Below, piece after piece: positions 31,586 to 62,883 of a stretch of DNA of 64,000 bases. Made by a program: the position numbers and the translations under genes. Each line of letters starts with the position of its first letter. The stretch's first letter is position 1. The stretch is from Rhynchopus sp. YZ270_cl-10 (lineage: Eukaryota > Euglenozoa > Diplonemea > Diplonemida > Diplonemidae): positions 1,143,501 to 1,207,500 of the forward strand of contig OZ037846.1 of NCBI GenBank assembly GCA_964035575.1. The letters are read 5' to 3'. The notes beneath the pieces were generated by a model. That model worked only from the letters and a program-made list of their open reading frames with translations. It made no database searches and had not been told where the DNA came from.

Positions 31586-31897
31586 GGGGGGCGAATAAGA
31601 GATCAGGGGTGAATAAGAGATCAGGGCCGAATAAGAGATCAGGTTGAGATTTTGGGGGTATTTTTTTTTTTTTTTTTTTTTTTTTGCATCCAACAGGGTT
31701 TTATCTTGAAAAAACATTTTGAAATTTTACCCTGTCTACCCGGTCTGGCAAAAAAGTGGTCAAAAAAATTTTTTTTGCCTCCGGCGAAAATGTCTTTTTG
31801 CTTTTTTTTCCCCAAAAAAATATATATATTTTTGGCTCGTCCGTTCGCCTAATAAGAGATACCACATCTCTTATTCGCCCCCCCCCCCCCCCCCCCC
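31586..31897. mobile_element. Small MITE with GGGGGGCGAATAAGAGAT ends
   Basis: 18-bp ends inverted at 31586-31603 and 31866-31883. The right end runs into 20 consecutive C (31878-31897). GAATAAGAGATCAGG is repeated three times at the left end. It lies in the tail of the broken hAT gene and provides the C-run where the first island begins. Confidence 0.65.
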
Positions 31898-32173
31898 TAG
31901 GCATAGATGTCATGCGAAGAGATTCTTCGGATTCTTCGTATTTTCTTCGTATTCCTCTTCGCATATTCTTCGCATTCGGAAAATGCGAAGAATATGCGAA
32001 GAAAATGCGAAGAATTTTTTTCCACCAATACTTTGCCCACAAAGGGATCGAAAGTGCTAAGGTGCAGATGATCGCACTGGGAAATAAGTTGCATTTTTCT
32101 TTTATTCACGCCGTTTCCTTTAAATTTTCAACGAGTATGCAATACGTTTGGAAAATAATTTACTATATTTATA

Positions 32174-33540
32174 CATAGCGCTCCAATTAGACTCTAACTA
32201 GATAATTAGAGTCGGCAGTTCGAGTATAATTAGAGTCTTTAAAACTCTAACTGAACTCTAATACTCTAACTGGACTCTAATTAGAGTCTAATTAGAGTCC
32301 TATAAGAGGGTCAATAAAGAGGGGCACATCAATCAATGCTATAGCCATCAACCCAGGGGGCATAGCTAGTGCAAGAAATTCGAATTTGTAATCCAGAAAG
32401 TCTGTTCTCTGCTTGCAGAGAACCAGACACAAGAAAATATTGTTTGTTCCCCCAGAAAACCAGTGCACAATTCACACTCCTTGTGGATGGTCTTGTTGCC
32501 TTTGTAGCACAGGAATTTTGGCCCAGGGCATGCACTTGAAGCATGGCTATTTGGTGTATGGGGCAGGGTGTTGTTTTGTTATGAATTCTCTTTGGTATAA
32601 CATCTAAGTCAATCGCGGGTAGTTGTTCAGCGCGTTCAGGCTTGGATCTCTCCTGGGTTCATAAGTAGTATTTCTTCGGATGAAATGAACGTATGCTCGC
32701 TATAGATTTCCCGTCAACACAGCCGTTGATACTGGGATTATCCCTTCGACCCCTTAGTGGTAGTTAAACGCGATTGACATTTACATTCCTACAGATGAAA
32801 GAACAAGACACCACTTCTGTACCCGCGCATCAAAATTGTAGAAAACTTTGCACCCGAAACACCTTCAATAACGCCCGCCAAAAGGCGCCCCTTGTTGCTG
32901 GGAGTTGGTTCTCATGTTTGATACCTGCACAGCGGGCATTCCTCTGAGTCCAACGCTGCTTGGCCTGTCTGCGCCGTTGCACCGAAGGTGCACATAGAGT
33001 TTTTGCATCGCATTCCCTAATGTGTGGGTCACTCACACTTGAGGGCATGTGCCACTGCGCGGGTTTGAGTACCTGGGTACCCATAGCTGAGAATAAGCCG
33101 GGTCCCGAGTCTCGGGTTGCGCCTACTCCCGGTACTGGGTACTAGGTACAGTAGGACTAGGACTAGGCCCCCACCCTCCCGCGACCGGGTCCCCGACCCG
33201 CTTTCAGGCGGACCCACAGCGCCTTCACATATTGTGTCCTGATAACTCGGTTCCCCAAGTCTTATTTTCAGCTATGTGGGTACCTGGGCACCTGGGTCCT
33301 ACAGAGGAACCTTAGGGGGACCGGTTCCTTACGGCGTTTGCACCTACAAGAAGCCTGTTGTTTTACTCTAATTAGACTATAATTAGAGTGTAGTTAGAGT
33401 CTAATTATGCTCTAACTGCACTCTAATTATAGTCTAATTGAAGAAAAGCGACTCTAATTATACTCTAACTGGACTCTAACTGACTTGGCCCAAAATCCCA
33501 GACTCTAATTATACCCTAATACTCTAATTAGAGCGCTATG
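32174..33540. mobile_element. Element g1, CATAGCGCTC ends with CTAATTAGAGT words
   Basis: Ends CATAGCGCTCYAATTAGA (32174 and 33540) are inverted, with AT-rich flanks TTTATA/TATATA as a possible imperfect target duplication. The subterminal 130-180 bp are iterated ACTCTAATTAGAGT words. The core 32330-33010 shares diverged blocks with 45990-46790. On the minus strand the core encodes RRQAKQRWTQRNARC (about 32975-32930) and a second open stretch at 32544-32329, perhaps exons of an unrecognised protein. Confidence 0.6.
33086..33272. mobile_element. MITE h1, ends GCTGAGAATAAG, TA flanks
   Basis: 187 bp nested in g1. Ends inverted; TA at 33084-33085 and 33273-33274. The interior is GGGTCCC/GGTAC-type palindromes. 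Confidence 0.6.
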
Positions 33541-33639
33541 TATATATATTCGTTTGTCTGTTTTGCTCTTTTTTGTGCTCCTCCATAACAGCTCTTCCTC
33601 TTTTTTCTGTGATATTTTGCCCCACCTTACTGTATAAAA

Positions 33640-33800
33640 AAGAAAACAACAGACATGGCTTCATAAATATATTGAATATCGTCAATATATTGATTTGGTG
33701 ATGAATATTATTGATTGAATATTGAAAGTATCAATAATATTGACTGAAAACTGTCAATATTTCAATAGTATTGAAATATTGATCATATTATTGAATATTG
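33640..33800. repeat. TCAATATTGA palindromic tract
   Basis: About 160 bp of overlapping AATATTGA words in both orientations, able to form alternative hairpins. It could be a decayed MITE; no clear ends are seen. Confidence 0.45.
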
Positions 33801-33839
33801 ACGTTGCAGTGCCTGATTTTTCCTTGACGGGAGGCCATG

Positions 33840-34071
33840 GCTGAGAATAAGACTTGGGGACCCGGGACCCGGTTATTCTCAGTGGGACTGGGCACAATAT
33901 GTCGAAAACGCTGTGAAAACGCCTGAAAGCGGGTCAGGGACCCGGGCGCGGGAGGCTGGGGCATGGATGGAGGGGTATTCCCAGTCCCTAGGACTGGGAC
34001 TGTACCCAGTGACCAGTACCCGTCCTAGTTCTAGTCCTGGGACAGTACCCGGGACCCTGCTTATTCTCAGC
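33840..34071. mobile_element. MITE h2, relative of h1
   Basis: Ends GCTGAGAATAAG and CTTATTCTCAGC; 232 bp; the interior shares GACCCGGGACCC and GCGGGTC-type words with h1. No clear target duplication. Confidence 0.6.
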
Positions 34072-36040
34072 TCCCTTCCAGCCACAGAGTGGAGAGGCAA
34101 AGGGTCAAACTTTTCTGTTGAAGCCATGTGCGCAACATTTCAAAGATTGTGCCATAAATCGCACATTATCACAGCCAAACTATATCATGGATAGGGTAGA
34201 GCTGTGGGCTACCGCTCGTAATTCCTAAACACTTGTGTTTAGGTTTTTAAGCTTGCTGCCCTCCCAGTACCCTCCTGGTGCACCCACCCGAAAATGCACC
34301 AAAGTGTAAGATTTTTTCGGCGTTGGAAAGATTGGGCCTCAAAAATGCGAATCACCAAATCAGATCTGTGAGAGATTTGTTTTTAATTCCTATTTTCGTG
34401 TCGCGAGTTTACGTGGGAAATGCTTTAGAAACGTGCGTTCCTTAAGTACCCTGTGGGCAAAACAGGCGTTTTTCACCAAAAACCGGGATTTTCGCCTTTT
34501 TGGGTGGCTTTTTGGGCCCATACCCGGCTATATGGACTGGGAAACGCGATTCTGGGGTGCTAGAACCAGGTCTAGGCCGCACAGGGGTACTTCTGTGGGC
34601 AAAAACAACCCACAAAACCATGCACTGCGTTGTGTTCTGTGACCATTCAAGTGTTTTAGCTAGTGCACGAGGCGTTGCTATCGATTTGGTTTCGTTCTCG
34701 CTCATCAACCACACGAGCTAGCAAAAAATATTTAGGATTCGCAAAACCAAATTTTGTCCGCGCCGCAGGCGCACGGTGCGCTACTTTTTTATGGGAGTTG
34801 CGCAGGGCGTTCGCTATCGCCATCGTTTTTTCCTGATCGTGGCGAAATGCCAAAAAACCCGAAATTTTTGCTTTTTTACTAGTGCTTAAAATAGGTCAAA
34901 AAAAAATTTTTCCGCCGGAGAGAAGCTAGTTCGTGGGGGGTGAATCCCTGGTGCTGAGTGATCAAAAAAAATTGCGATTTGCGCGTGATCCCTTCCCCAG
35001 GACTAAAACCAGCAAAACGATGGAGAATTTCATCAATCCCCCCTCACTGAGGGTTCTCTTTGTGCTGTTTAATCGAACAGATGTACAAGAGAGAAGCATC
35101 CGTCATATGAGACTTCATCCTTATTTTGATTATTTTCAATAAACTAACCCGTCTCTCTGCCTCCACCAAGGTTGAAGATAGAGTTGACACGAGTAGTGAC
35201 ACCTTCTATAACAGGGGGTACGGGACACCTTCAGCTGACTGCAGGATTGAGGAGCGAGCGGGAGTGCTGGGGAAACTTCCTCTCACGGCAGGCGGGTTTG
35301 CGGATGATTTTGAGTACAGTGGACACCCCCTCTGTGACCCCCCCTCCGGGGGGGTCGACAGGGTGGTGGGGAGAAATCTCTCTCTCTTTTTTTTTTTTTT
35401 TCCTCCCTTTTTTTTTTTTTATTTATTTATTTATACAGGGTTTCGCCCCGGTGGGGCGAAGCCCTGGGGCGAAATAAAATGTCATTTTTTCAGGAAAAGA
35501 TTTTTTTAACGAAAAAAAATATTTTTCGCCCCGGGGCGAACGCCCTGGAGTTGCGAACATACATTTGAAAAATCCATCCATCCACATATGAGAGGATCAG
35601 TGAGTAAATAGTTCCGCTTATGGGCCCAGGAGGCTTCCCCTGGTCAGGGGTGGGGTTTGCTGCTTGGAGAGGAGGTTGTTCTGGGTACAGAACGAGAAAA
35701 AAGAGTAGTTGAAACGTGCTAAAACGCAGTCGAGCTCATGCAAAGGGTAGGAGGTGGGTGTTCCGTACCGTAAGAGAACGGAGGCGGTTCACAACCGCTC
35801 GACGAATCACGCGACCTCTTTATACCCCAGCCTTTTTAACAGCCAAAAAAACTCTATGATTTTGCACGTGTTACCGTGGGACTCTAAGGGCAATCATGGC
35901 TCAGTTCGTAAACGTGCACGTGCCATTCAATGCCAAAATATTTATATCTCGTGTGTATTGTGTTTTTCTCGTCAGCGTTTTAAAAACAAAAATAGTAAGG
36001 TGGGACATAAATCACAGAAAAAAAGAGGAAGAGGTGTGCA
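34072..36040. other. Unrecognised interior of element a
   Basis: Contains a GCGCCGCAGGCGC hairpin word at 34762-34774, GC palindromes ttcgccccggtggggcgaa (35441 region) and ttcgccccggggcgaa (35523 region), and T/A runs. No gene is convincing. Confidence 0.4.
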
Positions 36041-36230
36041 CGGAATATGCACTTCGCATTCTTCGCATATTCTTCGCATATTCTTCGCATGTTGGAAAAT
36101 GCGAAGAATATGCGAAGAATGCGAAGTAGGCGAAGAATATGCGAAGAAAATACGAAGAAAATACGAAGAATTTTTGGGATTTTTGAAAATGCGAAGAATC
36201 CGAAGAATCTCTTCGCATGACATGTATGCC

Positions 36231-37675
36231 TAGGGGATACGACTCCAGCCATTTTGGCTGGGACCAAACGCACGGAAAATTCATTTGGCATTATCTGGCC
36301 ATCTCCAAGGCAACTGCGGGTGAAAAACACCCTCAGAGTGGGTCACAGGGGGCCTGTGGGTCGAAAAACGACCCAGAAGCCACCCCAGAATACAAAAAAA
36401 TGGAAAAAAATAGTGAAAAAACGGCTTTTTTCACGTTTTGGCCACTTTGGGCAAAATAGCGATTTTTCGAGAAAAAAATCAAAAACCGGGATATTTTTTG
36501 ACATCACAAAGCCTCCTTTGGCACAAATATACCCCAAAAGTGGCCTGTGAGTCCATTCCAACCTGTTTTGGACATATTTGACACTTTTGGAAGTGCTTTT
36601 TTGGTGTTTTTAGGTCAAAAAAATGCCCAAGACGTCCCCAAGACATCCCCAAGACACTTTGCACACCCCCTGTTACGGTCATATTTTTTTCGTTTTTTTG
36701 CCTGAAACCCCCAAAATACCCCTCCCGGACCCCACATAGTCCCGAATATCCATCACACACCCACTCAGAGTGAGTAGAAGCACCCCAAAAAAAATATTTT
36801 TTAAAGCCCTAAAATTGTGCTTCAGTTTCGGCAGCATCCATGTTGAAGTTGAAGGGCTTTAAAAAATATTTTTTTTGGGGTGCTTCTACTCACTCTGAGT
36901 GGGTGTGTGATGGATATTCGGGACTATGTGGGGTCCGGGAGGGGTATTTTGGGGGTTTCAGGCAAAAAAACGAAAAAAATATGACCGTAACAGGGGGTGT
37001 GCAAAGTGTCTTGGGGATGTCTTGGGGACGTCTTGGGCATTTTTTTGACCTAAAAACACCAAAAAAGCACTTCCAAAAGTGTCAAATATGTCCAAAACAG
37101 GTTGGAATGGACTCACAGGCCACTTTTGGGGTATATTTGTGCCAAAGGAGGCTTTGTGATGTCAAAAAATATCCCGGTTTTTGATTTTTTTCTCGAAAAA
37201 TCGCTATTTTGCCCAAAGTGGCCAAAACGTGAAAAAAGCCGTTTTTTCACTATTTTTTTCCATTTTTTTGTATTCTGGGGTGGCTTCTGGGTCGTTTTTC
37301 GACCCACAGGCCCCCTGTGACCCACTCTGAGGGTGTTTTTCACCCGCAGTTGCCTTGGAGATGACCAGATAATGCCAAATGAATTTTCCGTGCGCAAAAA
37401 ATGGCTGGAGTCGTACACGACGGTGAAGTAACGGGTGTTACAAGTGGAGTTACAAGTGAGTTACATGTAACTTTTGTTACATGTAACTCACTTGTAACTC
37501 ACTTGTAACCCACTTGTAACCCACCAGTTACAACCTGATTTTGCCTGTAATTCATGTATCCCACTTGTAACTCACTTGTAACTCACTTGTAACTCACTTG
37601 TAACGGTTTTTCACTTGTAACGTTACTAGTAACTTCACTTGTAATGTACTATACTTCACCGTCGTGTACCCCCTA
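36231..37675. mobile_element. Foldback element b1, TAGGGG...CCCCTA ends
   Basis: Two arms of roughly 560-590 bp, inverted and nearly identical, meet at a loop of about 60 bp (36799-36858). The outer ends are TAGGGGATACGACTCC and GGAGTCGTACCCCCTA. The right flank is a run of 19 C; the left flank is the CCTAGG where element a sits. No protein is coded. A 251-bp MITE is inserted next to its right end. A reverse-oriented copy lies at 58607-61058. Confidence 0.85.
37416..37666. mobile_element. CACGACGG MITE, copy in foldback b1
   Basis: A 251-bp variant with a slightly different interior (more ACTTGTAACTC words). TA flanks at 37414-37415 and 37667-37668. The b2 sequence gagtcgtatcccct is the empty site. 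Confidence 0.9.
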
Positions 37676-37694
37676 CCCCCCCCCCCCCCCCCCC

Positions 37695-38893
37695 TAGGGG
37701 AGGGTCACTGTACTCGATAAATGCGATTTTTCCGATTTTGATCCTCAGAACCGCAGAAGTCCCCGAAAACTATACCAAACCACCTAGGGGACCCAAAAAA
37801 CGCACCAGCGCCCCAGTTTTGACACAGAAACACTCAGATGATGCCTGAAATGCAATTTTTAAAAAATGCCTACAGAACTTGTACCTGCCCACCCCCCGTA
37901 GATAGAGCAAATCACACATTCATCACGCCTCAGTGTGGGCCAGGGGCCAGAAAAGCCCCCAAAGCCACATATTTTCACCCCAGAACCTATCCCGAGGGGT
38001 ACCCAGCCTGTTTCGGGGTGTTTAGAGGGACTTGGTGGAACTTAGAACCATGTTTCAAAAAGGGTACAAGTACTGTGCCAAGGGTTTTCCCACCCTAAGG
38101 TATCTGAAGCCGTCAAAAAGCGTGAAGTAGGCAATAAATCAAAAAATACCCCCTGAGGTCAAAAAAAACCACACCATAGGCCCATTTGGACCCCAAAAAT
38201 CGAATTCCGCCCGGTTTTGGGCACTTTTGACCACTTCTGAGCGACTTTTTTGCGTTTTTTAAAAGTGACCACCAACTTGTACCTGCCCACCCCCCCTGTA
38301 GATAGAGCAACTCACACATCCATCACGCCTCAGTGTGAGCCAGGGGCCAGAAAAGCCCCCAAAGCCACATATTTTCACCCCAGAACCTATCCCGAGGGGT
38401 ACCCAGCCTGTTTCGGGGTGTTTAGAGGGACTTGGTGGAACTTAGAACCATGTTTCAAAAAGGGTACAAATACTTGGTCCCTTGAGAGGGCAAACCCTTG
38501 GCACAGTACTTGTACCCTTTTTGAAACATGGTTCTAAGTTCCACCAAGTCCCTCTAAACACCCCGAAACAGGCTGGGTACCCCTCGGGATAGGTTCTGGG
38601 GTGAAAATATGTGGCTTTGGGGGCTTTTCTGGCCCCTGGCACACACTGAGGCGTGATGGATGTGTGAGTTGCTCTATCTACAGGGGTGGGCAGGTACAAG
38701 TTCTGTAGGCACTCTTTTAAAATTGCATTTCAGGCATTATCTGAGTGTTTCTGTGTCAAAACTGGGGCGCTGGTGCGTTTTTTGGGTCCCCTAGGTGGTT
38801 TGGTATAGTTTTCGGGGACTTCTGCGGTTCTGAGGATCAAAATCGGAAAAATCGCATTTATCGAGAGATTTAACGTGCAGTGACCCTCCCCTA
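37695..38893. mobile_element. Foldback element x, TAGGGGAGGGTCACTG ends
   Basis: Ends are inverted and both flanks are runs of 19 C. Segment 37876-38070 recurs directly at 38274-38470 and inverted at 38510-38705, so the arms contain an extra internal direct duplication. Non-coding. Confidence 0.8.
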
Positions 38894-38912: not shown

Positions 38913-40540
38913 TAGGGGGGTCCGTCCGGCCGTTTTTGCTGTCCCAAACCACTTTTTTTTGTAAAAACCCGCGAAAAACCCGAAAAAACACCTCAAAACA
39001 CCCCAAAACCCCCAAAAAATCACCCAAAACCACGAAAAACACACTTTTGAGCACTATTTCGCACTTTTTTCTGATTTTTTGGTGTTTTTTCCCGTTTTTT
39101 CTGCTTTTTTCCACGGAATTATACCCCCTAATATGCCTATAGAATCCCTGTACTGCTCACTGAGACAGCATAGCGACCAGAGGCTCCTTATTCATCGTAC
39201 CGGTGTCTTCGTCGTCAAGGGGTGCACAATCTGCCGCAAATTCCTGCATCTCTGTCTTTGTGAAGAGATCAAGCACTTTAGTGTTGTACTTTTCAAGTTG
39301 CTGCTTCTGGGTGCTTTGCATGGACCTGCCTTTGTGGTGCGCTTGGTGTATCCTGCGGCAAGTTCTTCCCTTGAGAGAGACGGAACCCAACCTAGACTGT
39401 AGAGGATGTCTAGGTTTCAGCGACAGTGAGTCGGTGTTGTCGGGGTGCTGGCTCCTTCCGTGGTGGCTTGCAACTTGGTCAAGGACACCGACAACGGATT
39501 CGCACGAATCATTGGTCATAGGAGGAGGCAAGGAAGGCTTTACTGCACTTAGGCACAGGGTACGTTGTCATTTTCAGGGACCAAAAAGCCCCAGTAAGTG
39601 TTGCAAGCACAGCTCGGGAGGTCTGTCAGGCAGTTCAGAGGGATTTAGACACTTCTGCGACTGCCTGAACACGCCTTTTAGGGTTTTTATTTTGGGTGCG
39701 AAATACGTCAAAAGGATGGGGGGAAATACCGTTATTTTAAGCGTTGCAGACACAAAAACACCCTCAAAAACCCCCCAGGGACCCCAAAAAGCTGCAAAAT
39801 CACACATTTCCACCTCGGGACCTCATTGGAGGTGGACCGAGGTGGTTTTTTGGTGTTTTGAATGAATTGGTATTATTTTTTTTTGGTAAATAAGTGGTCT
39901 TCTGCTAGGCGTTGCATAGCCGTTGCTTAAGTGTTGCATAAGTGTTGCATGGCCTATAAAACCCTCCCAAGTGCCCAAAATGCTATTTTTCACCCTACAT
40001 GGGGTCTGGGGGACATTTTCCTGGGTGTTTGGACACCATTCCGACTACCTTGGCACTTTTTTGGGGGTTTTCAGGTACAAAAAAAGTCAAAAAAGTGACT
40101 AAAAAAAGGGTACTTTTAAGCGTTTGGGGCACACACACCCACTGCAAAATGCATCTGGGGCCCACACAGGACCCCTAAAAGCTGTAAAAACCATATATTT
40201 CCACCCTGGGACCCCACCGGATGTGGACTGGGGTGTTTTTCGGGTGTTTAGAAGGATTTTTGTCTGATTGGAGAATTTTTTTGATAAGTGTTGCATTTTG
40301 GCCCATGTTGATGACGATTTGATGACGCTATTTTTGGAGATTTTTCACAAAAAACCGATTTTTTTTAACCAGGAAAGTCTCTGTAGAGGCTGTCAGGTGG
40401 TTTAATGGGATATTTTCGTGATCCCCAGGGCGATTTGCGGCCAGGTACAACCTTTTTAGTGGGTTTCTTCACCTAAATTTCAAAAAAATGGGTTTGGGAC
40501 AGCAAATCCTTAAGGAATTCCTTCTACGTGGACCCCCCTA
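38913..40540. mobile_element. TIR element with captured gene fragment (element 3)
   Basis: Ends TAGGGGGGTCC inverted, with subterminal TTTGCTGTCCCAAACC (left 38934 region) mirrored near 40489. C-runs of 19 and 10 flank it. It shares interior blocks (ggcccacacaggacccctaaaagc; aatttcaaaaaaatgggttt) with the element at 52264-53712. It has no transposase. Confidence 0.7.
39157..39531 (-). pseudogene. Captured gene fragment in element 3
   Basis: 124 open codons with normal composition amid low-complexity DNA: QKQQLEKYNTKVLDLFTK, EMQEFAADCAPLDDEDTG, MNKEPLVAMLSQ. Homology not recognised. The abrupt change in base composition against the surrounding A/T- and C-run DNA suggests a host exon picked up by the element. 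Confidence 0.4.
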
Positions 40541-40550
40541 CCCCCCCCCC

Positions 40551-41740
40551 TAGGTGGGGGCAAAACCCCTATTTTTTTGAGGCATTTCGATTTTTTTGGA
40601 TTTACGCGCAAAGTACCCGCAAACCACCGAAAATTTCGGGTCAGAGATGGTTTTGGGGTGTGGTTTGGGGGTGTTCTATAGGTGAGACACCCCAGAGATA
40701 CAAAAAAATGGAAAAAAATAGCAAAAATAGACCATTTTGGCCGTTTGGGCCATATTGGTCAAAATGGCCATTTTTGACCAATATTTCAAAAAAAAAGCAA
40801 AATTTTGTCATCATTAGGCCTGTCTGGGCACAAATATGCCCCAAAAATGTCCCGCGAGTCCATTCCGACCTGTTTTGAACACATTTATCGCCCTTTTTGG
40901 TGTTTTTTTTGGTGTTTTGAGGTCAAAAAATATCCCCTGACTATCCCCTGGCAGCCCTGGGCCGCGACTTGCGCCCTGCTTTTGGACCCCCTCTGGGCCA
41001 AAAAAATGGGTGAAAACCCCCGAAAAAGCACTCCGGGAACCCAGATAGTTCCAAATATCCACTAGAAACCCACCCAAACACCTCAAAAACATGCCAGAAA
41101 AATATTTTCAAAAACACACTTTTTTCAAAAAGTTCATCTGGGCAGGTTCCATAATGACTTATTTGAAAAAGTGTGTTTTTGAAAATGTTTTTCTGGCATG
41201 TTTTTGAGGTGTTTGGGTGGGTTTCTAGTGGATATTTGGAACTATCTGGGTTCCCGGAGTGCTTTTTCGGGGGTTTTCACCCATTTTTTGGCCCAGAGGG
41301 GGTCCAAAAGCAGGGCGCAAGTCGCGGCCCAGGGCTGCCAGGGGATAGTCAGGGGATCTTTTTTCACCTAAAAACGCCAAAAAACGGCCAAAAAAAGTAC
41401 CTAAAGTGTCCAAAACAGGTCGGAATGGACTCACAGGACCTCCCTGGGGTAGTTTTGTGCCCAAGCAGCTGTCATGATGTCGAAATTTTGCTGTTTTTTT
41501 GATTTTTTTGTCCAAAAATGGTCATTTTACCCAACATGGCCAAAACCGTCAAAAGGCCACTTTTTCACTATTTTTTTGCATTTTTTCATATTCTGAGGTG
41601 CCCTTATCATGGATTTTCGGGTCACAGGGTGTTTCTGACCCATTTCTGGGGGTGTATGAGGGGTGGTTTGTGGGTACTTTGCGCGGAAGTCCAAAAAAGT
41701 CAAAATGCCTCACCCGTCCTGAAGGTTTTGCCCCCACCTA
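40551..41740. mobile_element. Foldback element 4, TAGGTGGGGGC ends
   Basis: Arms of about 570 bp meet at a loop near 41115-41165. The arms are similar but more diverged than those of b1, so this element is older. Flanked by 10 C on the left and A plus 19 C on the right. Non-coding. Confidence 0.8.
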
Positions 41741-47559: not shown

Positions 47560-48425
47560 ATAACAGATTGAAATTTTCTACCTTCAGTTTTCGCGTCCCC
47601 CTCCTTACCCGGCAGTAGCTCAGCACGGATGATGGCAATTAGTTGCGCCCGATCTGGAACGTCGAGAGCAGCCCACTTAGCACTGTCCCTCTTCAACTTT
47701 TTGTTGTGTCGGCAGCGCTGCACCAGCAGGGTAACCCCCTTCTGTGACTTCTCCACCCCTTCCTCCATGCATTTGTCGAACAACTGACACACCGGACTGC
47801 ACACCCTTGCCACGCTCCTTGGAGCAGGGATGCGGAGATGGGGCGCAGCGAGAAAGGGCTCCTTTCTTCTTCCTTCACATCGTCGTCCGTGCCGTCAGGA
47901 CCCGCCACGTTCACCTCCGGAGATGAGTGGAGGTCCCCTTCCTCTGACATCCGCCCAAAGCCCGCCTCCCATTGCCTGATAGGCAGGGGGGACGAACAGC
48001 GCGATGCGGCGATCCGCGATCCCGTCCGGTGCCGTGCGCGTCTGAGACTTGCATGCTTTGCGGGCGGTCGCAACCTCCAACTCCTGCAGGTCCCCGAAGC
48101 ACTCCCACGCCATACTGACTATCTCCCCAGTCATTTGCAGCTTATTGAATTTCGTTGTCAGGGAGTGGGGTGCCCCCCCGCTTCCCAGCCTTCGCTTATG
48201 CCTGAATGCGTGAAGGAGAACTCCTTCTTCGGGTAGTTCAGGAATTCTACCAACGTGTTGTGGAAAAGACATCGTTCTGTGGGGAAGAGGGGTAAGTTGG
48301 TAGTGAAGCAAGATATTTTCTGCAATGAAATACAGAAGCTGTAGGTTTAGAAATTGTTGGTGATGAAAGGGCTTTTGTTGTGTACCGAGAGCGCATGAAC
48401 AAGACTGAACGGCTGTTCTTATCAA
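47560..48425 (-). pseudogene. Divergent unidentified coding tract upstream of gene F
   Basis: In this copy the proximal frame is open for 176 codons (48425-47895), joining the segment nearest gene F to MSFPQHVG and DLQELEVATARKACKSQ. The distal QLFDKCMEEGVEK segment is in another frame (from 47813). Confidence 0.4.
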
Positions 48426-48484
48426 GACTCCTCCCCTCCCCTCACAACACCCTCACACCTCACACACCATTGCAGGAATTTCCT

Positions 48485-51786: not shown

Positions 51787-52050
51787 CACGACGGTGAAGT
51801 AACGGGTGTTACAAGTGGAGTTACATGTAACTTTTGTTACATGTAACCCACTTGTAACGTTACAAGTGGGTTGCATGTAATGTTACATGTACCACCACCA
51901 AAAACCACTGAACTTCACCTAATTTCAGGCAAAATCAGGTGGTGGTACATGTAACGTACTTGTAACTGTTACAAGTAGCACTTGTAACGGTTTTTCACTT
52001 GTAACGTTACGAGTAACTTCACTTGTAATGTAACATACTTCACCGTCGTG
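51787..52050. mobile_element. 264-bp CACGACGG MITE, gene F copy
   Basis: TA at 51785-51786 and 52051-52052, at the same site as in units 1 and 2. The insertion therefore predates the split of C, D and F and postdates the split from A and B. Confidence 0.9.
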
Positions 52051-52263
52051 TACGCACGAGAGGCTTAGGTTCATCCTATAAACTTTGATGTATTTTAATT
52101 GGGACCGCACGGCGATGAGTGTAATAGTTCCGTTGTGTCCTCCGGTTGTCTGGTGGCCCCATTTTATTTTTGTCAAAATTCCGGTATTCATTTTGTTTGG
52201 TGCTACGAGTCATGTACCTGACATGTAAACGCCAACAAAACAATAACCTCCCCCCCCCCCCTT

Positions 52264-53712
52264 TAGGGGGCGCAGTGAGACCCTTTTTTCTGTCACACCC
52301 CCCAACAACAACTTTCAGACAAACACCCCCCAAAAAATCATGAAAAAGTGTAAAAAAAATATCCGAAAACACAAAACCACCCCAGAAAACACATTTGTGG
52401 GACTATTTCTTACTTTTTGATGCCTTTTTGGCACTTTTGGGAACTTTTTTTGACACTTTTTGTAGCGTTTTCACCCCATTTTCACCGTTTTCTAAGGGGG
52501 TTTGAGACAGGGCGATTTATCAAAAAATTCATTTTTTTTCAATAGTCCAAAACAAGAGGAAAAGAGGTTTTTTCCACTCAGATGTGTCCACAGAGCGATT
52601 TCTGGGGGTTTTGGGGCCAAAAGTCTATTTTTTTGTACACCTTTGCTGAAAATTTTGATTTTTTTTTTTTGCCGTAAAAACCACATTTTAGCCGGGATGA
52701 GGAAGTGTGACATAAGTGTGACATTGGAGGGGGGCATCTCATAGCCCAGAAAAAAGCGTTTTTTTAACTTGGAAGTAGGGTTTTCTGCCTATTTGGGTGT
52801 CCCCGCATCCATTCCGAGCCGAATTCTGGCCTTCTGTGACTTTTTCGGCGGCCCTTTTGGGGCGGCATTTGGGAATCATCCCAAGAACACCCCAAAGAAC
52901 AGGTATTTTTAGGGTAAAATGAGTATTTTTTTTGAAAAAAAATATTTCTGGGGGTGCCAAAAAAGCCCCAAAACTATATTTTCCCACCCCCGAACCTCAC
53001 CCAAATATGATGGGAGTGGTTTTCGGGGCTTTACAGGTGCTCCGTGGAACCAGAAATAGTGATTTAGGAAGTGTGACAGAAGTGTGACAAGAAGTGTGAC
53101 AGAAGTGTGACATCGGAGAAATTTGGATCTGGGGTCACCAAAATGGGCAAAAACCATCTGAAAACAGTCTATTCCACCCCCAGTGGGGTCCGGCAATCAT
53201 TTTCGAGTGGTTTTGGGGACTTATGTGGACCTGTGGACAATTTTTTGGGGGTTTTAATGTGTGTAAACATGCTAAGAAGTGAGGGAACTGCTGCTTTTTT
53301 AGGCGTTTCAGGCACTGCAGAATACATCTGGGGCCCACACAGGACCCCTAAAAGCCCCAAAAACCATACATTTCCACCCTGGGACCCCACCGGATGTGGA
53401 CCGAGGTGTTTTTCGGGTGTTTAGAAGGCATAATGTCTCCTTAGAATTTTTTTTTGAAAAGTGTTGAAAATTGACCCAAAAGCGTTACACAAGCGTTACA
53501 CATTTTTGGCCATTTTTTCACAAAAAACCAAATTTTTTTAATCAGGAAAGTATCTGTAGAGGTCGTCAGGTGGTTTAATGGGATATTTGGGTGATCCCCA
53601 GGGCGATTTGCGGCCAGGTACGACCTTTTTAGTGGGTTTCTTCACCTAAATTTCAAAAAAATGGGTTTGTGACAGTATTTGTACAGGGATTTAGACACCA
53701 CTGCGCCCCCTA
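52264..53712. mobile_element. TIR element 7, TAGGGGGCGCAGTG ends
   Basis: Ends TAGGGGGCGCAGTG (52264) and CACTGCGCCCCCTA (53712). Left flank is 12 C plus TT, right flank 8-9 C. It shares blocks with element 3. Non-coding. Confidence 0.75.
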
Positions 53713-54443
53713 CCCCCCCCCAAGGGTGTAAATAAGGTCTGGGGGTCCGGGAGTCGGGAGTCGGGAGTCGGTTATTTACAGTTGCTAAGAAGGGGGTGTA
53801 TGCACTATGCACCCTCTGGAGAGGGTCAAAAGTGCTCGAACAGGATTTTTTTGGATCTCCTTGTTTCCATGATGCGGTAACCTTGGGAAATGGCCAGTTA
53901 TTCGGCCACAGGGGGGAAGGAGGAGACAATGAGGAATGAGGTGGGGACTGAAAAATGAAAGGGTCGCGGGAGGGGCAAATGATAACAGATACTAAAGGAG
54001 ATGCTGATTCGCACCTGAGGGAGGAATGATTGGGGGTGGGTCAAGGGGTGGAGGGGGTGGTAACACAATCAAAAGGGGTCTCTCGATATATATAAGAGCA
54101 AAAAGCAAAAACGCAAATCCGAATAAAAAACCCTACCGCCCCATTCTTTTAATTTTTGGCAAAACACTATGCGAAGTTAACGTACGGAGGGTGAGACCGG
54201 GGAAACACAAAAAATCCTGATGAGTGAGTGAATGATTTTTAATGAGTTTCCCCTGTTACCCTCTTCCAACCTTGCAGATGCAAGTGGACAATAAATATGC
54301 AGGACGCGAAGCCTAAAAATATATAATCGAGAGACCCCCAAGACGCAGCAGAGCTGCTTAAACAAGTTTACTAGGGAACGTAAAAGTAAGCCTAATCACA
54401 ATCACAAAGTACGCTCCCTAAACTCCACTCGATTCACACTACG

Positions 54444-54751
54444 TCATCTACTCTTCTTCGCTTTCCTCCTCCTCCTCCTCTTCTTCTTCCTCTTCACCCT
54501 CCTCCCCCTCCTCCCCTCCTCCCCCTCCTCCCCCTCCTCCCCCTCCTCGTCTTTTTCGCCCTTTTCACCCTCCCCCTTCCCCTCCTCGTCTTCTTCGTCC
54601 TCCTCATCCTCCTCGTCCTCGTCCTCGTCGTCGCTCTGGATCGCAAAGAAGTCAACTGCTGCACTGCGGAGACGCTTCGAAATATCGTGCACAGGCTCAC
54701 TCTCATCTTCCACCTTCCTCTTGCGACCAGCACCCGGTTTCCGTCTATCTG
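54444..54751 (-). CDS. Terminal exon of an acidic/basic protein inside element 8
   Basis: On the minus strand a CCGCAG acceptor (54757-54752) leads into [40 protein letters not shown], a long Glu/Asp tract, then an Arg/Lys tail ending at 54444. A nuclear protein, or the C-terminus of a transposase, is likely. Upstream exons are not found; the hexamer array lies directly upstream, so this is probably a captured 3' exon. Confidence 0.4.
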
Positions 54752-54773
54752 CTGCGGCATAAAAAATGCGTAT

Positions 54774-55126
<353 letters not shown>

Positions 55127-55605
55127 AGTCGGGAGTCGGGAGTCGGGAGTCGGGAGTCGGCTTATTTACACCCTTGCCCCCCCCCCCTAGGCATACCTAG
55201 AAAGCGAATATGATATTCGGCCTATATTCGGATCCGAATATGCGTATTCGCCCTATATTCGGATCCGAATATAGGCGAATATAGGCCGAATATGACCCGA
55301 ATACACGTATCACCAACAGGAATGTATCATATTTTTGAAATAGACCCCACCACGTTCCGCAATTGGCTCGGAAAATCCAAAAATGGGGGGGAAGGGGAAA
55401 AAAAGAGAAAAAAAAGTCCAAAAAAAAAGAAGAAAGAAAGTCACTTTTGTATTTCGAAGCCCCGCGGGCTTTCCATGAATTTTCGCCGAAAATTATCGCG
55501 TTTAGGTTTGCACAATATATGACGTGCTTCGGTGAATTCTTTTCGGTGCACCCCTACACTATCAACAGGAATTTATCAGTTTAAACGCTAAAAAAAATAT
55601 CATCA

Positions 55606-58111
55606 ATGGGCCCAAAAAGCAGAAAGAGGAAGGTCGACGAGACGACCATTGTCTCGAGCAACACGGACGCGAGCGATTCCTCTTCCACCAGGGCACAAAC
55701 AAAGAAAAGAGTGAAAAAATCAGCGAAGAAGGCAACGAATAAGCCTTCTACAAAGACTGCAAGCAAGCCACCAGCCAAGAAAGGCGGCGCGATAGAGAAG
55801 ACCCCGGCGGAGAAGCGCAAAGAGACCATAGAGTCTCGGAAGAAGCTGAAGGAGGTGTCGGCGGAGGCGAAGGCGGTCGGTAACCGCGCAGGGTCGTTTA
55901 ACCGCGCTGGAGAAGTACGACCGATCAATTGCAGAGTGTTATGAAGTATGTATCGCTAAAAATGTATTAAAAAACCGGTCAGTATAGAACAAAATGAGGG
56001 GCCACACTGCTACGGCGGCGCTAAAGTGACTAGGGTGAATACAAAGTAATAAAAAATAAAAAAAATGTAACAAATAACAAAAAAATCTCAGGTAATGGAG
56101 GTTGATGAGCTCCCCTTCGAGGAAAAGGCAGCAGCGAAGAAAACAGGGCGAAAGGGAGACGACACAGTTCTTTTTTGTGTACATTGCCGTGGAGTGGTGC
56201 AACACGGTGAAAGTAGTACCGCCAAGGTACACGTCCAAAGCGACCGCCACAAAAATAATGAGCGTAGGGAGAAGAAGAAGAAGAAGAAGGCTGCAGCTCC
56301 AGTTGGTGACACGAAGGAGAAGCGGCAGCAGGTGTTGACGCCGGTGATGGGGTTGGCGGCGTTTGTCACAACATGGGCATTGGCTGTGCTGGTCTGCGGA
56401 CTCACAGAACGCCAAGCCGACATTATGTCGCTGCCAGTGCGTCCCCTCTTCGGAGAGGACTTCCCAACCGGGAAAACGGTCCTGGGCCGCTCCACGAAGT
56501 TCGTGAAGGAGATCGAGGGTGTGCTACTGAAGTTGGTTGAAGGGAAACCAATCCCTCTCGGGATAGATGGATCGGGTATGCTAATAAACAAATGACCACT
56601 ATCCCAAAATTTTTATTGCAGGACAGAGACACCTGGGTTTTTCGACATTGTGCATTGTAGCGTTCGTTGCAGGCCAAGCCCTCCTCATTCATATGGACGT
56701 AAAAGATACTGGAGAAGTCCACTGTGGTCGAGATGTGAAGGATGCTATCAACACAGCTCGAAAAAAATTTAATATCGCGCATTCTCCCGTGGTTGCTGAT
56801 TATGGATCGATAAATGTGGTAGGGTTGTCTGACGAGGAAGCCAGTTGGTGTTTTGGCCACGTGACAAATTCGGCACTGAAAGCACACGTAAAAATTAACT
56901 ACCAGCTGTCATATGTTTTTTGTACAGCGTTTAGTCAGCTTTTCTCTTGTAAAAGCCGACGAGTGCGCTGGCTCAATTTCCAGGAATCTTCTGTCAGCAA
57001 CGCGCGTGAGTCGGCGGCGGACACACAAGACACCAGGATTCGTTTGAAAGTCGCTGTGGAGAAAAAAAGTGTCAGGGGCATGCAACGTTTGCTTCCGGGG
57101 CCGAAAATAGATGATATTGAAGAGCTTCTGGCCAAAGCAAAGGAGGTGTTGAGCGAAACGATCGATGTTGACGTTGAGAATGTTGATACGGCATCGCCGA
57201 AGACACCATCACTCACCAGCGACACCCGGTGGTTAGCCATGGCCGACCTTGCTATACACATTAGAGACAGACATCAACCCCTGGTATCTTTCCTCGATAG
57301 TGAAATGGGGAGAAAGAAAAAGAACCAGTCTCTCCTCTCCCTCGTTGAACTTGTCAAAACGGACAGGTGGCAGGATCATGTACGCGAAGTGTCGGCATTT
57401 GCAAACGATATCGAACCTCTTCTTCCATTCCTCAGAAAGGTGCAAAATCCCGGCACCAAAATTGCAGCGAGCTGGTGGTTTCCAGAGATTCAGAGGGTAC
57501 TCACCAACAGCGACTACTCTGCGAATATGCGCGAGTGTTTATCAGCAGCATGGGCCGAGTACAAGTCGAGAGACCGGTTTGAGAAGTTAATATTCTTTGA
57601 CTGCAATGTCATCCTCTCCGGGGACTATGATGATGATGACCTGCCGACAGGGGAGCCACAGTGTCAGGACGCAGAGATGCAGAAATGGGGTGCTATTTTC
57701 TATGCTTTGCGCGAACCGACCGTGTGGAACGAATTCATCCTGTACCTCAACGCCGAAGCCCTTTTGTTTCAGGATGTTACTGACCTGTTCGAGTTCTGGA
57801 GTCCAAGAGGCAGTGGAGGGTTACGCTTCCCGAATTTAGCGCCACACGTCCATGGATGGCTTTCAACCCCGATCAGCGTAACCTCAGTTGATGGATTATT
57901 TTCTTCCTTAAGTGCAATGAAAAATAAACGCTCCTCGAATTTATCTAAGGAAAAGTTTATTGAGAAGCTGATGCTGCGGAAGAACGGCAAGCTCCTTGGA
58001 TTGCTTCAGGACAAGAAGGGGCTCCTCGGCGAGGCGGTGGAGCAGTCGGAATCGTCAGATTCCGACTGTGAGCCTCTCGCCGAGGAGCTCGAGATGATAC
58101 CAGTGTTCTAA
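55606..58111 (+). CDS. hAT-like transposase (intron-containing)
   Basis: Predicted cut-and-paste transposase. A Lys/Arg-rich N-terminus starts at 55606 (MGPKSRKRK). GT-AG intron 55946-56091 joins AECYE to VMEVDELPFEE; GT-AG intron 56576-56621 (46 nt, with ctaat) joins GIDGSG to QRHLGFSTL. Before the first intron the reading frame changes between 55855 and 55891; a 37-nt GT-AG intron would bridge it, or it is a frameshift. Domains: BED-like zinc finger FCVHC...HVQSDRH (about 56170-56250), TRW motif (DTRW at 57221-57232), and a hAT C-terminal dimerisation region FPNLAPHV, STPISVTSVDGLFSSL, NLSKEKF (about 57825-57960). Catalytic acidic residues cannot be assigned by eye. It appears intact apart from the uncertain frame change. 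Confidence 0.7.
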
Positions 58112-58132
58112 ATGCTGGTATCATCTCGAGCT
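58086..58132 (+). terminator. 18-bp perfect hairpin across the transposase stop codon
   Basis: Arms 58086-58103 and 58115-58132 are perfectly complementary; the 11-nt loop holds the TAA stop (58109-58111). Just upstream, 58042-58065 forms another perfect stem (GTCGGAATC-GTCA-GATTCCGAC), nested within ctcctcggcgagg/cctctcgccgaggag. A 3'-end or stability role is inferred. Confidence 0.6.
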
Positions 58133-58606
58133 GCTTTTTCATGAGCAAACAAAAAAAAAAAAACAAAAAAAAACCCCTCTTTGTTTGCACTACTCCTACT
58201 ACTACTTCAATCTTAAGTCCACACCCACGTGGCGGACGCTTTGGCATGCGTCTGTAAGGACAGCCTTGATACTTTCTGTATTGCCTCTTTTCCATCAACA
58301 GTGCTTTTTGTGCTTTCAACTTCTCTTGTTTTTGCAAAGACACCGATCATCAAAAGACCCCCACACCCACCCCCCAATACACGCGTTTCGCTACCTCATG
58401 TCCCCACCCACCCCCATCCAAACTCACTCACACCCTTTCTGCAGTCTAGATTCTGTGTATTCGGATCCGAATATAGGGCGAATATGCATATTCGGCCTAT
58501 ATTCGGATCCGAATACGATATTCGGATCCGAATATAGGCCGAATATGGCCCAAGAATTTTGGATCCGAATATAGGCCGAATATCATATTCGCTTTCTAGG
58601 TATGCC

Positions 58607-61058
58607 TAGGGGGTACGACTCCAGCCATTTTTTGCGCACGGAAAATTCATTTGGCATTATCTGGTCATCTCCAAGGCAACTGCGGGTGAAAAACACCCTC
58701 AGAGTGGGTCACAGGGGGCCTGTGGGTCGAAAAACGACCCAGAAGCCACCCCAGAATACAAAAAAATGGAAAAAAATAGTGAAAAAACGGCTTTTTTCAC
58801 GTTTTGGCCACTTTGGGCAAAATAGCGATTTTTCGAGAAAAAAATCAAAAACCGGGATATTTTTTGACATCACAAAGCCTCCTTTGGCACAAATATACCC
58901 CAAAAGTGGCCTGTGAGTCCATTCCAACCTGTTTTGGACATATTTGACACTTTTGGAAGTGCTTTTTTGGTGTTTTTAGGTCAAAAAAATGCCCAAGACG
59001 TCCCCAAGACATCCCCAAGACACTTTGCACACCCCCTGTTACGGTCATATTTTTTTCGTTTTTTTGCCTGAAACCCCCAAAATACCCCTCCCGGACCCCA
59101 CATAGTCCCGAATATCCATCACACACCCACTCAGAGTGAGTAGAAGCACCCCAAAAAAAATATTTTTTAAGGGGGATCCGTAAATAGACCGGCAACGACC
59201 AGACACGTAATTAGTGTGTATAGCCGGTCTTTAGCCGGTCTTTAGCCGGTCTTTAGGGTCCGTAAAAAGACCGGCTCTTAAGGATTACCGGCTATAAGGG
59301 CCGGTCCTACCCACCCTCGAAAAAGACCGGCAGACCGGGTGTACAATTGTACACACAAAAAATACCCGATTTTTTGGAAAAAACCTAAGGGGGGACCCTT
59401 TGGTCGTCGAAATTCCCCAGCCAAAATTGGTCGCAAAATCGGCCGATTTTTCAAAAATCTCAAAAAAAAAAAATCCCAAAATTTTTTTTCACAAGTGTTT
59501 TTGAGGCCTGCTCACTACACCCTATGTACCCTTCTGGGACCAAAAAGTCAAAAAAAGCATGAATTGGGCTGTTTTGAGCATCTAGAGTTTATTCCCCGGC
59601 CATTTTCTGTACCACCAGTGCATTTTGTATGGGCCAGCGCCTTGTCAAAAAATCGAAAAATCTCAAAAAAAAAATTTTTTTTTTTCGGGAAAATTTCGAC
59701 CCCTGAGTTGGGTTTTTGGGCACCAAAAAGTGCAAAAAAACGCAAAAATCGGGTGTTTTGACGATCTGGGGGTAAACCATATGCATTATGCACCTTACGC
59801 ATTACTACAGGGGCCCACAATTTCGACTTTTCCTTAGCAAATTCCGTCACAAATTTTTTTTCGATTTTGGCAAAGGCAAATCTCAGGCAAAAAAAATCAC
59901 CCCGATAGTGGGTCCTTGGGTGTCCAAAGATGCCAAAAACACAAAAAAATTGATGTTTTGACCATCGGTGGGCACCTAAAACGCACTTTTCTGCGCCCAA
60001 AAAATGAATATCGATTTTTCCTTAGCGTTCTTATAGCCGTGCGTGATTTTTCAGTTTTTTTTCGCAGAGGGTGAAAAAAAAATTCGTAATTTTATTGCTC
60101 AAAAACGGGCGTGGTAGGCGTGTTTATCAATGCATGCATCCAGAGGACCTCTGGTTTACGTAATCGTAGGCACTCCTGAGCAAAAATGAAGTCGGTTTTT
60201 GACCCAAAATCGGGGTGTGTGGGCCCTAATTTGCTCCAAATTTGGCCGAAAATTGGGATTTTTCTGAAAATTTCATTGTGCTCAGCAAAAATCCTTGCTT
60301 TTTTGAAGAATTTTCCAAAAAATATGCTATACCCCCTATGACTGGACCCAACTCCCCTCACCCTTTTTTTTTTCACCCAAAAGGGCCGGAAATTTTACGC
60401 ACTAATACACAAACTTACGGACCCCCCTAAAGCCCTTCAACTTCAACATGGATGCTGCCGAAACCGAAGCACAATTTTAGGGCTTTAAAAAATATTTTTT
60501 TTGGGGTGCTTCTACTCACTCTGAGTGGGTGTGTGATGGATATTCGGGACTATGTGGGGTCCGGGAGGGGTATTTTGGGGGTTTCAGGCAAAAAAACGAA
60601 AAAAATATGACCGTAACAGGGGGTGTGCAAAGTGTCTTGGGGATGTCTTGGGGACGTCTTGGGCATTTTTTTGACCTAAAAACACCAAAAAAGCACTTCC
60701 AAAAGTGTCAAATATGTCCAAAACAGGTTGGAATGGACTCACAGGCCACTTTTGGGGTATATTTGTGCCAAAGGAGGCTTTGTGATGTCAAAAAATATCC
60801 CGGTTTTTGATTTTTTTCTCGAAAAATCGCTATTTTGCCCAAAGTGGCCAAAACGTGAAAAAAGCCGTTTTTTCACTATTTTTTTCCATTTTTTTGTATT
60901 CTGGGGTGGCTTCTGGGTCGTTTTTCGACCCACAGGCCCCCTGTGACCCACTCTGAGGGTGTTTTTCACCCGCAGTTGCCTTGGAGATGGCCAGATAATG
61001 CCAAATGAATTTTCCGTGCGTTTGGTCCCAGCCAAAATGGCTGGAGTCGTATCCCCTA
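58607..61058. mobile_element. Foldback element b2, inverted copy of b1
   Basis: Reads as the reverse complement of b1 from end to end, including the asymmetric loop (cttcaacttcaacatggatg at about 60434). Outer ends TAGGGGGTACGACTCC and GGAGTCGTATCCCCTA. Right flank A plus 10 C; left flank the CCTAGG of element d. Interrupted in the loop by element c. Confidence 0.85.
59171..60427. mobile_element. Element c, GGGGGRTCCGTAA ends, TAA duplication
   Basis: Inserted in the b2 loop and flanked by TAA (59168-59170, 60428-60430); the uninterrupted b1 loop has a single TAA. The 3-bp TWA-type duplication and G-run ends fit PIF/Harbinger-like non-autonomous elements. The left subterminal region repeats AGCCGGTCTTT three times. 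Non-coding. Confidence 0.7.
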
Positions 61059-61275
61059 ACCCCCCCCCCTAGGCATACATGGTAAGCGAACAAAAAATTC
61101 GCTTTATTCGCTTTTCCAAAAAAGCGAATAAAAAGTTCGCTTTATTCGCTTTTGGTTCGCTTTTTTATTCGCTTTATTCGCCTTTTATTCGCCTTTGGGT
61201 GATCTATGATCGTCTCCGTGGGACACGTAACAGGCTGTGAGAGCTTACTGAGAGCTAGTGGGTGCTGAGTACTGA

Positions 61276-61510
61276 GTATACACAGTATACACAGTATACA
61301 CAGTATACACAGTATACACAGTATACACAGTATACACAGTATACACAGTATACACAGTATACACAGTATACACAGTATACACAGTATACACAGTATACAC
61401 AGTATACACAGTATACACAGTATACACAGTATACACAGTATACACAGTATACACAGTATACACAGTATACACAGTATACACAGTATACACAGTATACACA
61501 GTATACACAG
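61276..61510. repeat. (TATACACAG)n nonamer array
   Basis: About 26 perfect 9-bp units, ending at gggattgggagtac. Confidence 0.95.
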
Positions 61511-61520
61511 GGGATTGGGA

Positions 61521-62058
61521 GTACAGTACAGTACAGTACAGTACAGTACAGTACAGTACAGTACAGTACAGTACAGTACAGTACAGTACAGTACAGTACA
61601 GTACAGTACAGTACAGTACAGTACAGTACAGTACAGTACAGTACAGTACAGTACAGTACAGTACAGTACAGTACAGTACAGTACAGTACAGTACAGTACA
61701 GTACAGTACAGTACAGTACAGTACAGTACAGTACAGTACAGTACAGTACAGTACAGTACAGTACAGTACAGTACAGTACAGTACAGTACAGTACAGTACA
61801 GTACAGTACAGTACAGTACAGTACAGTACAGTACAGTACAGTACAGTACAGTACAGTACAGTACAGTACAGTACAGTACAGTACAGTACAGTACAGTACA
61901 GTACAGTACAGTACAGTACAGTACAGTACAGTACAGTACAGTACAGTACAGTACAGTACAGTACAGTACAGTACAGTACAGTACAGTACAGTACAGTACA
62001 GTACAGTACAGTACAGTACAGTACAGTACAGTACAGTACAGTACAGTACAGTACAGTA
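61521..62058. repeat. (GTACA)n pentamer array
   Basis: About 108 perfect units. The pentamer is the reverse complement (rotated) of the TACTG arrays at 17 kb and 23.3 kb. Confidence 0.95.
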
Positions 62059-62278
62059 GCCTTATTTTGGCGTCGTTGCGGGTATTGGGGGATCTCGGGG
62101 GACTAGACTCGACACACTAGACTTGACAAAAAATACGTTGCTTTTTATTCGCTTTTTGTTCGCTTTTTCGTTCGCTTTTGGTTCGCTTTATTCGCTTTAT
62201 TCGCCGGCGAATAAAGCGAATAAAAAAGCGAACCAAAAGCGAATAAAGCGAATTTTTTGTTCGCTTACCATGTATGCC

Positions 62279-62883
62279 TAGGGGGGGTCAAATGCACTTA
62301 AAAAAACGATACAAACGTCATTTTTTCGAGTTTTTGATAAAAACGCATTATTTTGGATGATTGAGTAGAAATTTTGACCAAGAACCTCTCAAAAACATCG
62401 TGGGGGGTGGTTTTCATGCCAGAGGGGGATCACACGCACCCCAAATGGTGAAATTCCAAAAAAAAAAAATTTTTGCCCATGATTGGTACCAGCCCCACCA
62501 ATTCCTTAAGGAGTTAAATTCCGATTTTTTTCATTTTTTTTGCGATTTTTTTGCTCAAAAACTGAAGATACCCTGTTTTCGGGGCAAAACTCTCTAATTT
62601 TGGGCAGTTCCGTGTGAAAATATGCAAAAATAGTCAAAAATTGGAAAATCGTTAAGGAAATCGTTAAGGAAAATCCTTAAGACTTAACGTGGGGTACCAA
62701 TCACAGGCAATTTTTTCATTTTTGACGTCTAGGCGCTCCTGGGCCCGAAAAATGGGTCAAAACCGACCTACAAACAGTTTTCCACACGATATGTGTCACA
62801 TTTTCGGGTCAGATTCACTTAGAAATGCATTTTTATCGAAAACTGAAAAAAGTGGGTTTGTATCACCCATTTGACCGCCCCTA
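62279..62883. mobile_element. TIR element f, TAGGGGNGGTCAAATG ends
   Basis: Left TAGGGGGGGTCAAATG, right CATTTGACCGCCCCTA. Right flank A plus 18 C then TTTCCCGTGC of the host unit; left flank the CCTAGG of element e. Non-coding. Confidence 0.7.

Follow-up and report, generated by a model that had tools for sequence, protein, structure and literature searches.

Target-specific DNA transposons are few in eukaryotes, Dada being described in 2013 as the first superfamily of this kind and Pokey as a partial case (PMC3706591). Dada elements target snRNA and tRNA genes, have target-site duplications (TSDs) of 6–7 bp, and show a distant similarity to hAT, P, MuDR and Kolobok; terminal inverted repeats (TIRs) are said to be absent from the U6 and U1 families (PMC3706591). 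In bacteria, the most frequent target of IS4321/IS5075 is the terminal inverted repeats of the Tn21 family, which have been called a safe harbour (PMC8269217). The present analysis concerns a stretch of 64,000 nucleotides from Rhynchopus sp. YZ270_cl-10 (C14:1143501-1207500 of a 152.4-Mb genome of 126 contigs), termed here the window. It contains three elements (a, d and e), each between two copies of CCTAGG at the border between a run of C residues and another element. The former are termed layer-2 (CATAC) elements and the latter (X1, X2 and so on) layer-1 (TAGG...CCTA) elements. The explanation of this arrangement by two layers of DNA transposons is, taken as a whole, very probably correct.

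Other described systems share single properties with these elements. The hAT5, hAT6 and hAT7 groups have TSDs of 5, 6 and 7 bp, and IS3EU has a 6-bp TSD (PMC12730594). For P and hAT transposons a tendency toward a 14-bp motif containing the TSD has been noted, and a DDE core with CxxH after the second D is named for hAT (PMC3706591). The pineapple Ac-mMITE elements have (TA)n targets and Mutator-like 9/10-bp TSDs (PMC8449440).

Layer 2 is like IS4321/IS5075 in that a mobile element targets the end of another group of transposons (PMC8269217). The IS4321/IS5075 target however lies inside the TIR of the other transposon, whereas here half of a palindrome is supplied by the adjoining poly-C run. 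The mechanism of IS4321/IS5075 is also different, a 6-bp duplication being made here. This length fits the 6–7 bp of Dada (PMC3706591), but here the TIRs match perfectly or almost perfectly, and it is the border of another transposon that is targeted. The layer-2 flanks consist mostly of C-runs and TAGG elements, and the small RNA genes targeted by Dada (U1, U6, tRNA) are not seen there, although no scan of the flanks for tRNA or Rfam families was made. The usual 8-bp TSD of hAT elements is not found. By description only, hAT6 shares the 6-bp TSD and a hAT-type transposase (weakly supported here), and the available part of that description does not mention site-specific targeting; IS3EU, also likened by description, fits in TSD length only (PMC12730594). 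Layer 1 resembles Ac-mMITE in that both are non-autonomous, insert in simple repeats, and form adjacent chains separated by almost pure repeat; it differs by its poly-C target and TAGG ends, and no second layer is described in the available part of the Ac-mMITE article (PMC8449440). Within the literature covered, subscription papers and Repbase Reports being outside its scope, there is no report of a DNA transposon that targets the border between a C-run and another transposon, nor of a two-layer arrangement.

The layer-2 elements and their flanking hexamers are as follows.

31896..31901, left CCTAGG duplication of a; terminates a C20 run (31878-31897)
31902..36228, element a, 4327 bp, ends CATAGATGTCATGCGA / CATACATGTCATGCGA
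36229..36234, right CCTAGG duplication of a; overlaps the first bases of X1
55186..55191, left CCTAGG duplication of d; terminates a C11 run (55177-55187)
55192..58604, forward strand, element d, 3413 bp, CATACCTAGAAAGCGA ends, transposase-coding
58605..58610, right CCTAGG duplication of d
61068..61073, left CCTAGG duplication of e; terminates a C10 run (61060-61069)
61074..62276, element e, 1203 bp, CATACATGGTAAGCGA ends, interior mostly microsatellite
62277..62282, right CCTAGG duplication of e

A sequence-only reading of the window had placed a, d and e each between two CCTAGG copies at the border of a C-run and a TAGGGG-ended element, with unrelated interiors. All of this is borne out. The bracketing copies begin at positions 31896 and 36229 (a), 55186 and 58605 (d), and 61068 and 62277 (e). 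C-runs of 20, 11 and 10 residues (counted up to the T of TAGG) are on the left of a, d and e, and on the right is a TAGG-ended element that starts with TAGGGG (TAGGGGATACGACTCC, TAGGGGGTACGACTCC and TAGGGGGGGTCAAATG, respectively). Pairwise blastn comparison of the interiors gives no match (E<1e-5, dust filter on), while the ends are related: the first 16 bases have the common form CATA[C/G]-N7-GCGA, with one base off at the left end of a. When CCTAGG and the adjoining C/G are included, the inverted arms are 52 nt with 96% identity in a, 56 nt with 98% in d and 53 nt with 100% in e. No transposase was recognised in the open reading frames of a on inspection by eye, and a pattern search of the window for CATAC-N20-50-GTATG gave no match.

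Element d and its copy at locus L047 are 99.76% identical over 3329 bp, with identical main open frames, and stand at different sites. The copies are young by this near-identity, which together with the different sites points to recent mobility of d. The filling of e (window 61283-62044) consists of microsatellite arrays of AGTATACAC and GTACA, which also fill the L076-L078 elements between different ends; L079 has only the AGTATACAC kind. At L075 (C6:1357310-1358131) a small CATAC element has apparently turned into a tandem satellite of 87-bp units, with CCTAGG kept between the units.

The hexamer itself is not enriched in the window (12 copies against 8.35 expected; at least 12 are found in 13 of 100 shuffles). 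The signal lies in its exact placement, and plain chance was rejected as the source of the CCTAGG flanks. Genome-wide, CCTAGG occurs 13,617 times, once in 11 kb (reversed control GGATCC, 19,304), so a 6-bp duplication made at random would hardly ever have this sequence. The sequence GTATGCCTAGG occurs 755 times, against 9 for its reversed control.

The ends of the commonest CATAC family, CATACTGTGCNGGCGAG, were surveyed genome-wide, and 291 of 324 directly follow CCTAGG. Pairing of the first 100 listed ends gave 44 complete pairs and 12 single ends. CCTAGG is on both sides in 35 of the 44 pairs, five show another perfect duplication and four are mixed; nine of the single ends adjoin CCTAGG. 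Random hexamers at other copies, which by its own account would have counted against the sequence-only reading, are thus not what is found. The other perfect duplications are TCTAGG (L035, L038), ACTAGT (L036), TGTAGT (L037) and ATTAGT (L039), and all five have the core TAG in common. In the mixed pairs (L040-L043) the non-CCTAGG side reads TGTAGG, CAGTCA, CCGCCG and CCTAGC. When the fetched loci and the window are taken together, with identical 20-base flanks merged, the two hexamers are equal in 20 of 27 complete rows: 14 CCTAGG, two TCTAGG, and one each of ACTAGT, TGTAGT, ATTAGT and CTTAGG. The last is the L047 copy of d, where the layer-1 end is CTTAGGGG, reading TTAGGGG; d duplicates CTTAGG where the layer-1 end differs, and its position thus follows the border and not only the exact hexamer. 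In addition, L076-L079 have CCTAGG on both sides in each case (L078 is the element partly seen in L007/L008). CCTAGG is therefore a 6-bp target-site duplication just outside CATAC and not element sequence, because copies elsewhere carry their own identical hexamer on both sides. The possibility that it forms the element's own end, also raised in that reading, fails on the five copies above and the L047 copy.

The preference extends beyond the hexamer. CC stands outside CCTAGG at 424 of 592 CATAC-N7-GCGA ends and at 4177 of 25,724 (16%) other CCTAGG half-sites (odds ratio 13). (Without the flank, CATAC-N7-GCGA gives 1439 matches in the genome against 2604 for the reversed control and was set aside as a copy number.) Pairing of the ends listed for C1-C8 (89 ends, the final row of the list and the tandem array C6:1357310-1358131 being excluded) gave 38 complete elements, of which 27 are on the full 10-mer CCCCTAGGGG, 11 have CC on one side and none has it on neither. 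By comparison, 555 of 12,862 free CCTAGG sites (4.3%) are CCCCTAGGGG (odds ratio 54, p 2e-28). Junctions without an insert are present in the window (CCCCTAGGGG at 37691 and 38909; CCCCTAGGTGGGG at 40547), and the 555 uninterrupted CCCCTAGGGG sites in the genome compare with 147 for the reversed control. The C-run has the same direction on both sides of a layer-1 element, so that one border is CCTAGG and the other CCTACC or CCTAAC. CCTACC or GGTAGG was found as the duplication in 0 of the 44 pairs and in no complete element of the window or the fetched loci, L076-L079 included. The proposal that the elements recognise the junction made by a first wave is supported with one correction: junctions are favoured, but the target is the palindrome, which junctions supply best, and a minority of copies is at similar hexamers away from any C-run (L035, L036, L037, L039, L014).

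The first wave itself is visible in the window, where two paralogues of an invaded poly-C site are empty. Their flanks, at 18186 and 24644, read AACCTT-C8-TTCCCGTG. The same run at 52250-62902 holds the chain X9, Y, X1, X5, with a left flank 99.6% identical over 495 bp; in this chain d and e are at the CCTAGG borders of X1 and X5. At either end of the chain the run is followed by TT (C12TT at one, C18TTT at the other), which fits a duplication that takes in the end of the run. Together with the genome-wide preference, the empty paralogues support the earlier idea of a second wave of elements.

18186..18193, C8 run in a paralogue of the site that is filled at 52250-62902; empty poly-C target
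24644..24651, C8 run in the second paralogue; likewise empty
36231..37675, X1 first copy, foldback, 542-nt perfect arms; nested CACGACGG...CCGTCGTG insert at 37416-37666 near the right end
37676..37694, C19 run; with X2 forms an uninvaded CCCCTAGGGG border (37691-37700)
37695..38893, X2, foldback, TAGGGGAGGGTCACTG...CAGTGACCCTCCCCTA
38913..40540, X3, TAGGGGGGTCCG...GGACCCCCCTA; uninvaded CCCCTAGGGG border at 38909
40551..41740, X4, TAGGTGGGGGCAAAAC...GTTTTGCCCCCACCTA; uninvaded border at 40547
52264..53712, X9, TAGGGGGCGCAGTG...CACTGCGCCCCCTA; leftmost of the invading chain
53722..55175, Y, element within the C-run, AAGGGTGTAAATAAG...CTTATTTACACCCTT; GGGGTC array; ends uncertain by one base
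58607..61058, X1 second copy; nested insert 59171-60427 with TAA on each side
62279..62883, X5, TAGGGGGGGTCAAATG...CATTTGACCGCCCCTA

Among 39 TAGG-type ends examined, 15 carry a CATAC element and 24 do not. Of these 24 unoccupied ends, 22 adjoin a C- or G-run of at least 8 (16 directly, six with one or two A/T between); the other two are off any run, namely an end in L005 and a spurious hit at the nested insert 59171-60427. If only the window is counted, 8 of 8 unoccupied true ends that the patterns matched adjoin a C- or G-run, which in three cases is separated from the end by one or two T's. A scripted recount of these ends, and of the pairs and single ends above, gave the same figures. The pattern CCCCCCTAGGNGGG was discarded as being too narrow to cover X1 and X2.

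The following sequence of events is proposed. Several mostly foldback families with TAGG...CCTA ends (layer 1) would insert successively into poly-C, presumably by transposition with duplication of C's, and so form Cn-element-Cn-element chains. Each such insertion would make one palindromic border (CCCCTAGGGG) and one non-palindromic border (CCCCTACCCC), and layer 1 would have come first at every border. Layer 2, the CATAC-N7-GCGA lineage, is probably moved by hAT-like transposases such as that of d, and d-type proteins may also move the non-coding layer-2 families. The transposase would read the palindrome directly, most likely recognising a two-fold symmetric target of ~10 bp around (C)CTAG(G) and cutting 6 bp apart. 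The palindromic borders of layer 1 would be by far the best such sites, which would account for the concentration of layer 2 there.

Several points weigh against this explanation or limit its reach. CC is on one side only in 11 of the 38 listed pairs, several of which are X4 borders (CCCCTAGGTGGGG). In the tested family, 33 of 324 ends are not at CCTAGG; some that were fetched (L040-L045) have rearranged or mutated flanks, but the five complete non-CCTAGG pairs represent genuine insertions at other places, four of which are away from C-runs. The hexamers are unequal in 7 of the 27 complete rows (L032, the pair of L040; L041; the first of L042; L043; L048; L054; and L059, a chance match). The share of all CATAC-N7-GCGA elements at CCTAGG is known only for the one tested family. 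Most loci behind the 39 layer-1 ends were picked via CCTAGG or CATAC, which biases the proportion toward C-run flanks; the window count of 8 of 8 is small, and the patterns failed to match the right end of X1 (first copy) and those of X3 and X5. The TSD length of layer 1 is unreadable in a homopolymer. The remaining points concern the transposase of element d, whose splice sites were placed by eye and from the related protein P0002.

56092..56575, forward strand, transposase exon whose ATG is at 56095; contains a zinc-finger-like CxxC...HxxxxH stretch and may be preceded by another exon
56622..58111, forward strand, main transposase exon, with a weak Dimer_Tnp_hAT match near the C-terminus

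Pfam shows only Dimer_Tnp_hAT (E 0.0063-0.011; 16.0-16.7 bits against a curated cut-off of 21.4). A protein database search, in which only the 7997 candidates sharing most words were scored, yielded P0001 (the same protein), P0002 (49% identity over half of the query) and P0003 (42%); neither P0002 nor P0003 has a hAT match in Pfam. No related structure is present among solved chains, and the predicted structure, from a three-row alignment, is unusable (mean pLDDT 39.7). Viral contigs searched for relatives of the protein gave none. Stretches conserved between d and P0002 include VVAD and WCFGH among others, and the catalytic residues were assigned by eye. The short intron of this gene, recognised by eye, and the size of the genome point to a eukaryotic nuclear genome. 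Element d encodes a spliced transposase that is called hAT-like but is not filed as hAT, because the hAT match is under the cut-off, the relatives have no such match and the structure model is unusable. Fragments of another transposase gene, similar to the one in d (25% over 212 residues, 31% over 108), are found at 30557-31647 of the window, just left of the C20 run before a, with inverted duplicates of parts at 29257-29423.

Other explanations of the border preference were considered. A host protein, a layer-1 protein or an unusual DNA structure of the C-run border could direct the transposase to its site, in place of a direct reading of the palindrome. Poly-C is able to form unusual structures, and the length of the run varies widely (C10 in e, C31 in L010), both of which are in keeping with guidance. 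Insertions off the junction nevertheless retain the TAG core without any C-run (L036, L037, L039), and the CCTACC border, which is beside the same kind of C-run, has none of the 44 pairs; guidance is thus rather unlikely. It is a good deal less probable that CATAC elements insert widely and that only insertions at C-run borders survive. The poly-C chains appear to be non-coding, and further insertions into them would be expected to do no harm; one such chain adjoins a gene array. Survival however leaves the single-base precision unexplained, as it does the TAG core shared by off-junction copies and the absence of pairs at the CCTACC border, which should be equally neutral.

The counts could also repeat a few founding insertions, if CATAC and TAGG elements move as composite units or by segmental duplication. 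Some flanks do recur: C1:2581896 and C2:1693904 both have AGAGTGTACTTACC, and C5:1610239 is nearly the same. Kinds of layer-1 end were judged by their first 20-odd bases, and the occupied ends are of seven kinds (X1, X4, X5, X6, X7, X10 and the TCCGACTCC kind, printed as X3). Seven TIR variants occur at such borders: ACTCGAT, TTGTCCC (with CCCA in place of GCGA), CTAGAAA, ATGGTAA, ATGTCAT, ATAGCGT and TGTGCNGG. The TGTGCNGG family alone is beside six kinds of end (X1, X4, X6, X7, X10 and the TCCGACTCC kind), three CATAC variants occur at X1, and C-run lengths and outer flanks vary. Because one family is at six end kinds and seven TIR variants are at the borders, segmental duplication cannot explain the whole pattern, though a few flanks recur, and composite movement is very improbable. 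There is next to no chance that CCTAGG is the outer part of the CATAC terminal repeat or that the duplication is only TA or CTAG, the flanks then being silent on target choice: at a palindromic site alone, duplications of 2, 4 or 6 bp and element-owned ends look the same, but L035-L039 and L047 have other hexamers identical on both sides, and the non-palindromic TCTAGG, TGTAGT, ATTAGT and CTTAGG fix the length at 6 bp.

The window holds further elements and repeats. A 3-bp TAA duplication is typical of PIF/Harbinger elements. The element GGGGGATCCG...GGACCCCCC at 59171-60427 is in the loop of the second X1, and the first X1 has a single TAA there (36802-36804). Short CACGACGGTG...CACCGTCGTG elements are found at 17722-17985, 24180-24443, 37416-37666, 51787-52050 and 62915-63143, four of them between TA dinucleotides and one between TT. 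An array of GATGGCAT/GATGACAT units of ~1.3 kb (42011-43295) lies between elements. Six gene copies, 96-99% identical, are present at 2378-28609 and 46980-50712; in the copy at 48497-50524, Ferric_reduct, NAD_binding_6 and FAD_binding_8 are matched, while DOMON falls narrowly short of its cut-off. Of the three copies looked at, two have the C8 run beside them and the third has it invaded.

As far as the literature searches show, the border of a transposon with a homopolymer would be a type of target not described before. The preferred explanation is two layers of DNA transposons, and within it we lean, by a little, toward a layer-2 lineage that is largely hyperparasitic on the transposon community, its transposase having evolved to read the palindrome made by a TAGG element in poly-C. 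The choice of target can be tested with one encoded protein and a site of 10 bp, and each layer-1 element has a built-in negative control in its other, non-palindromic border. If the explanation is true, each wave of layer-1 insertion makes new homes for layer 2, and one transposon community would be seen to build the insertion niche of another.

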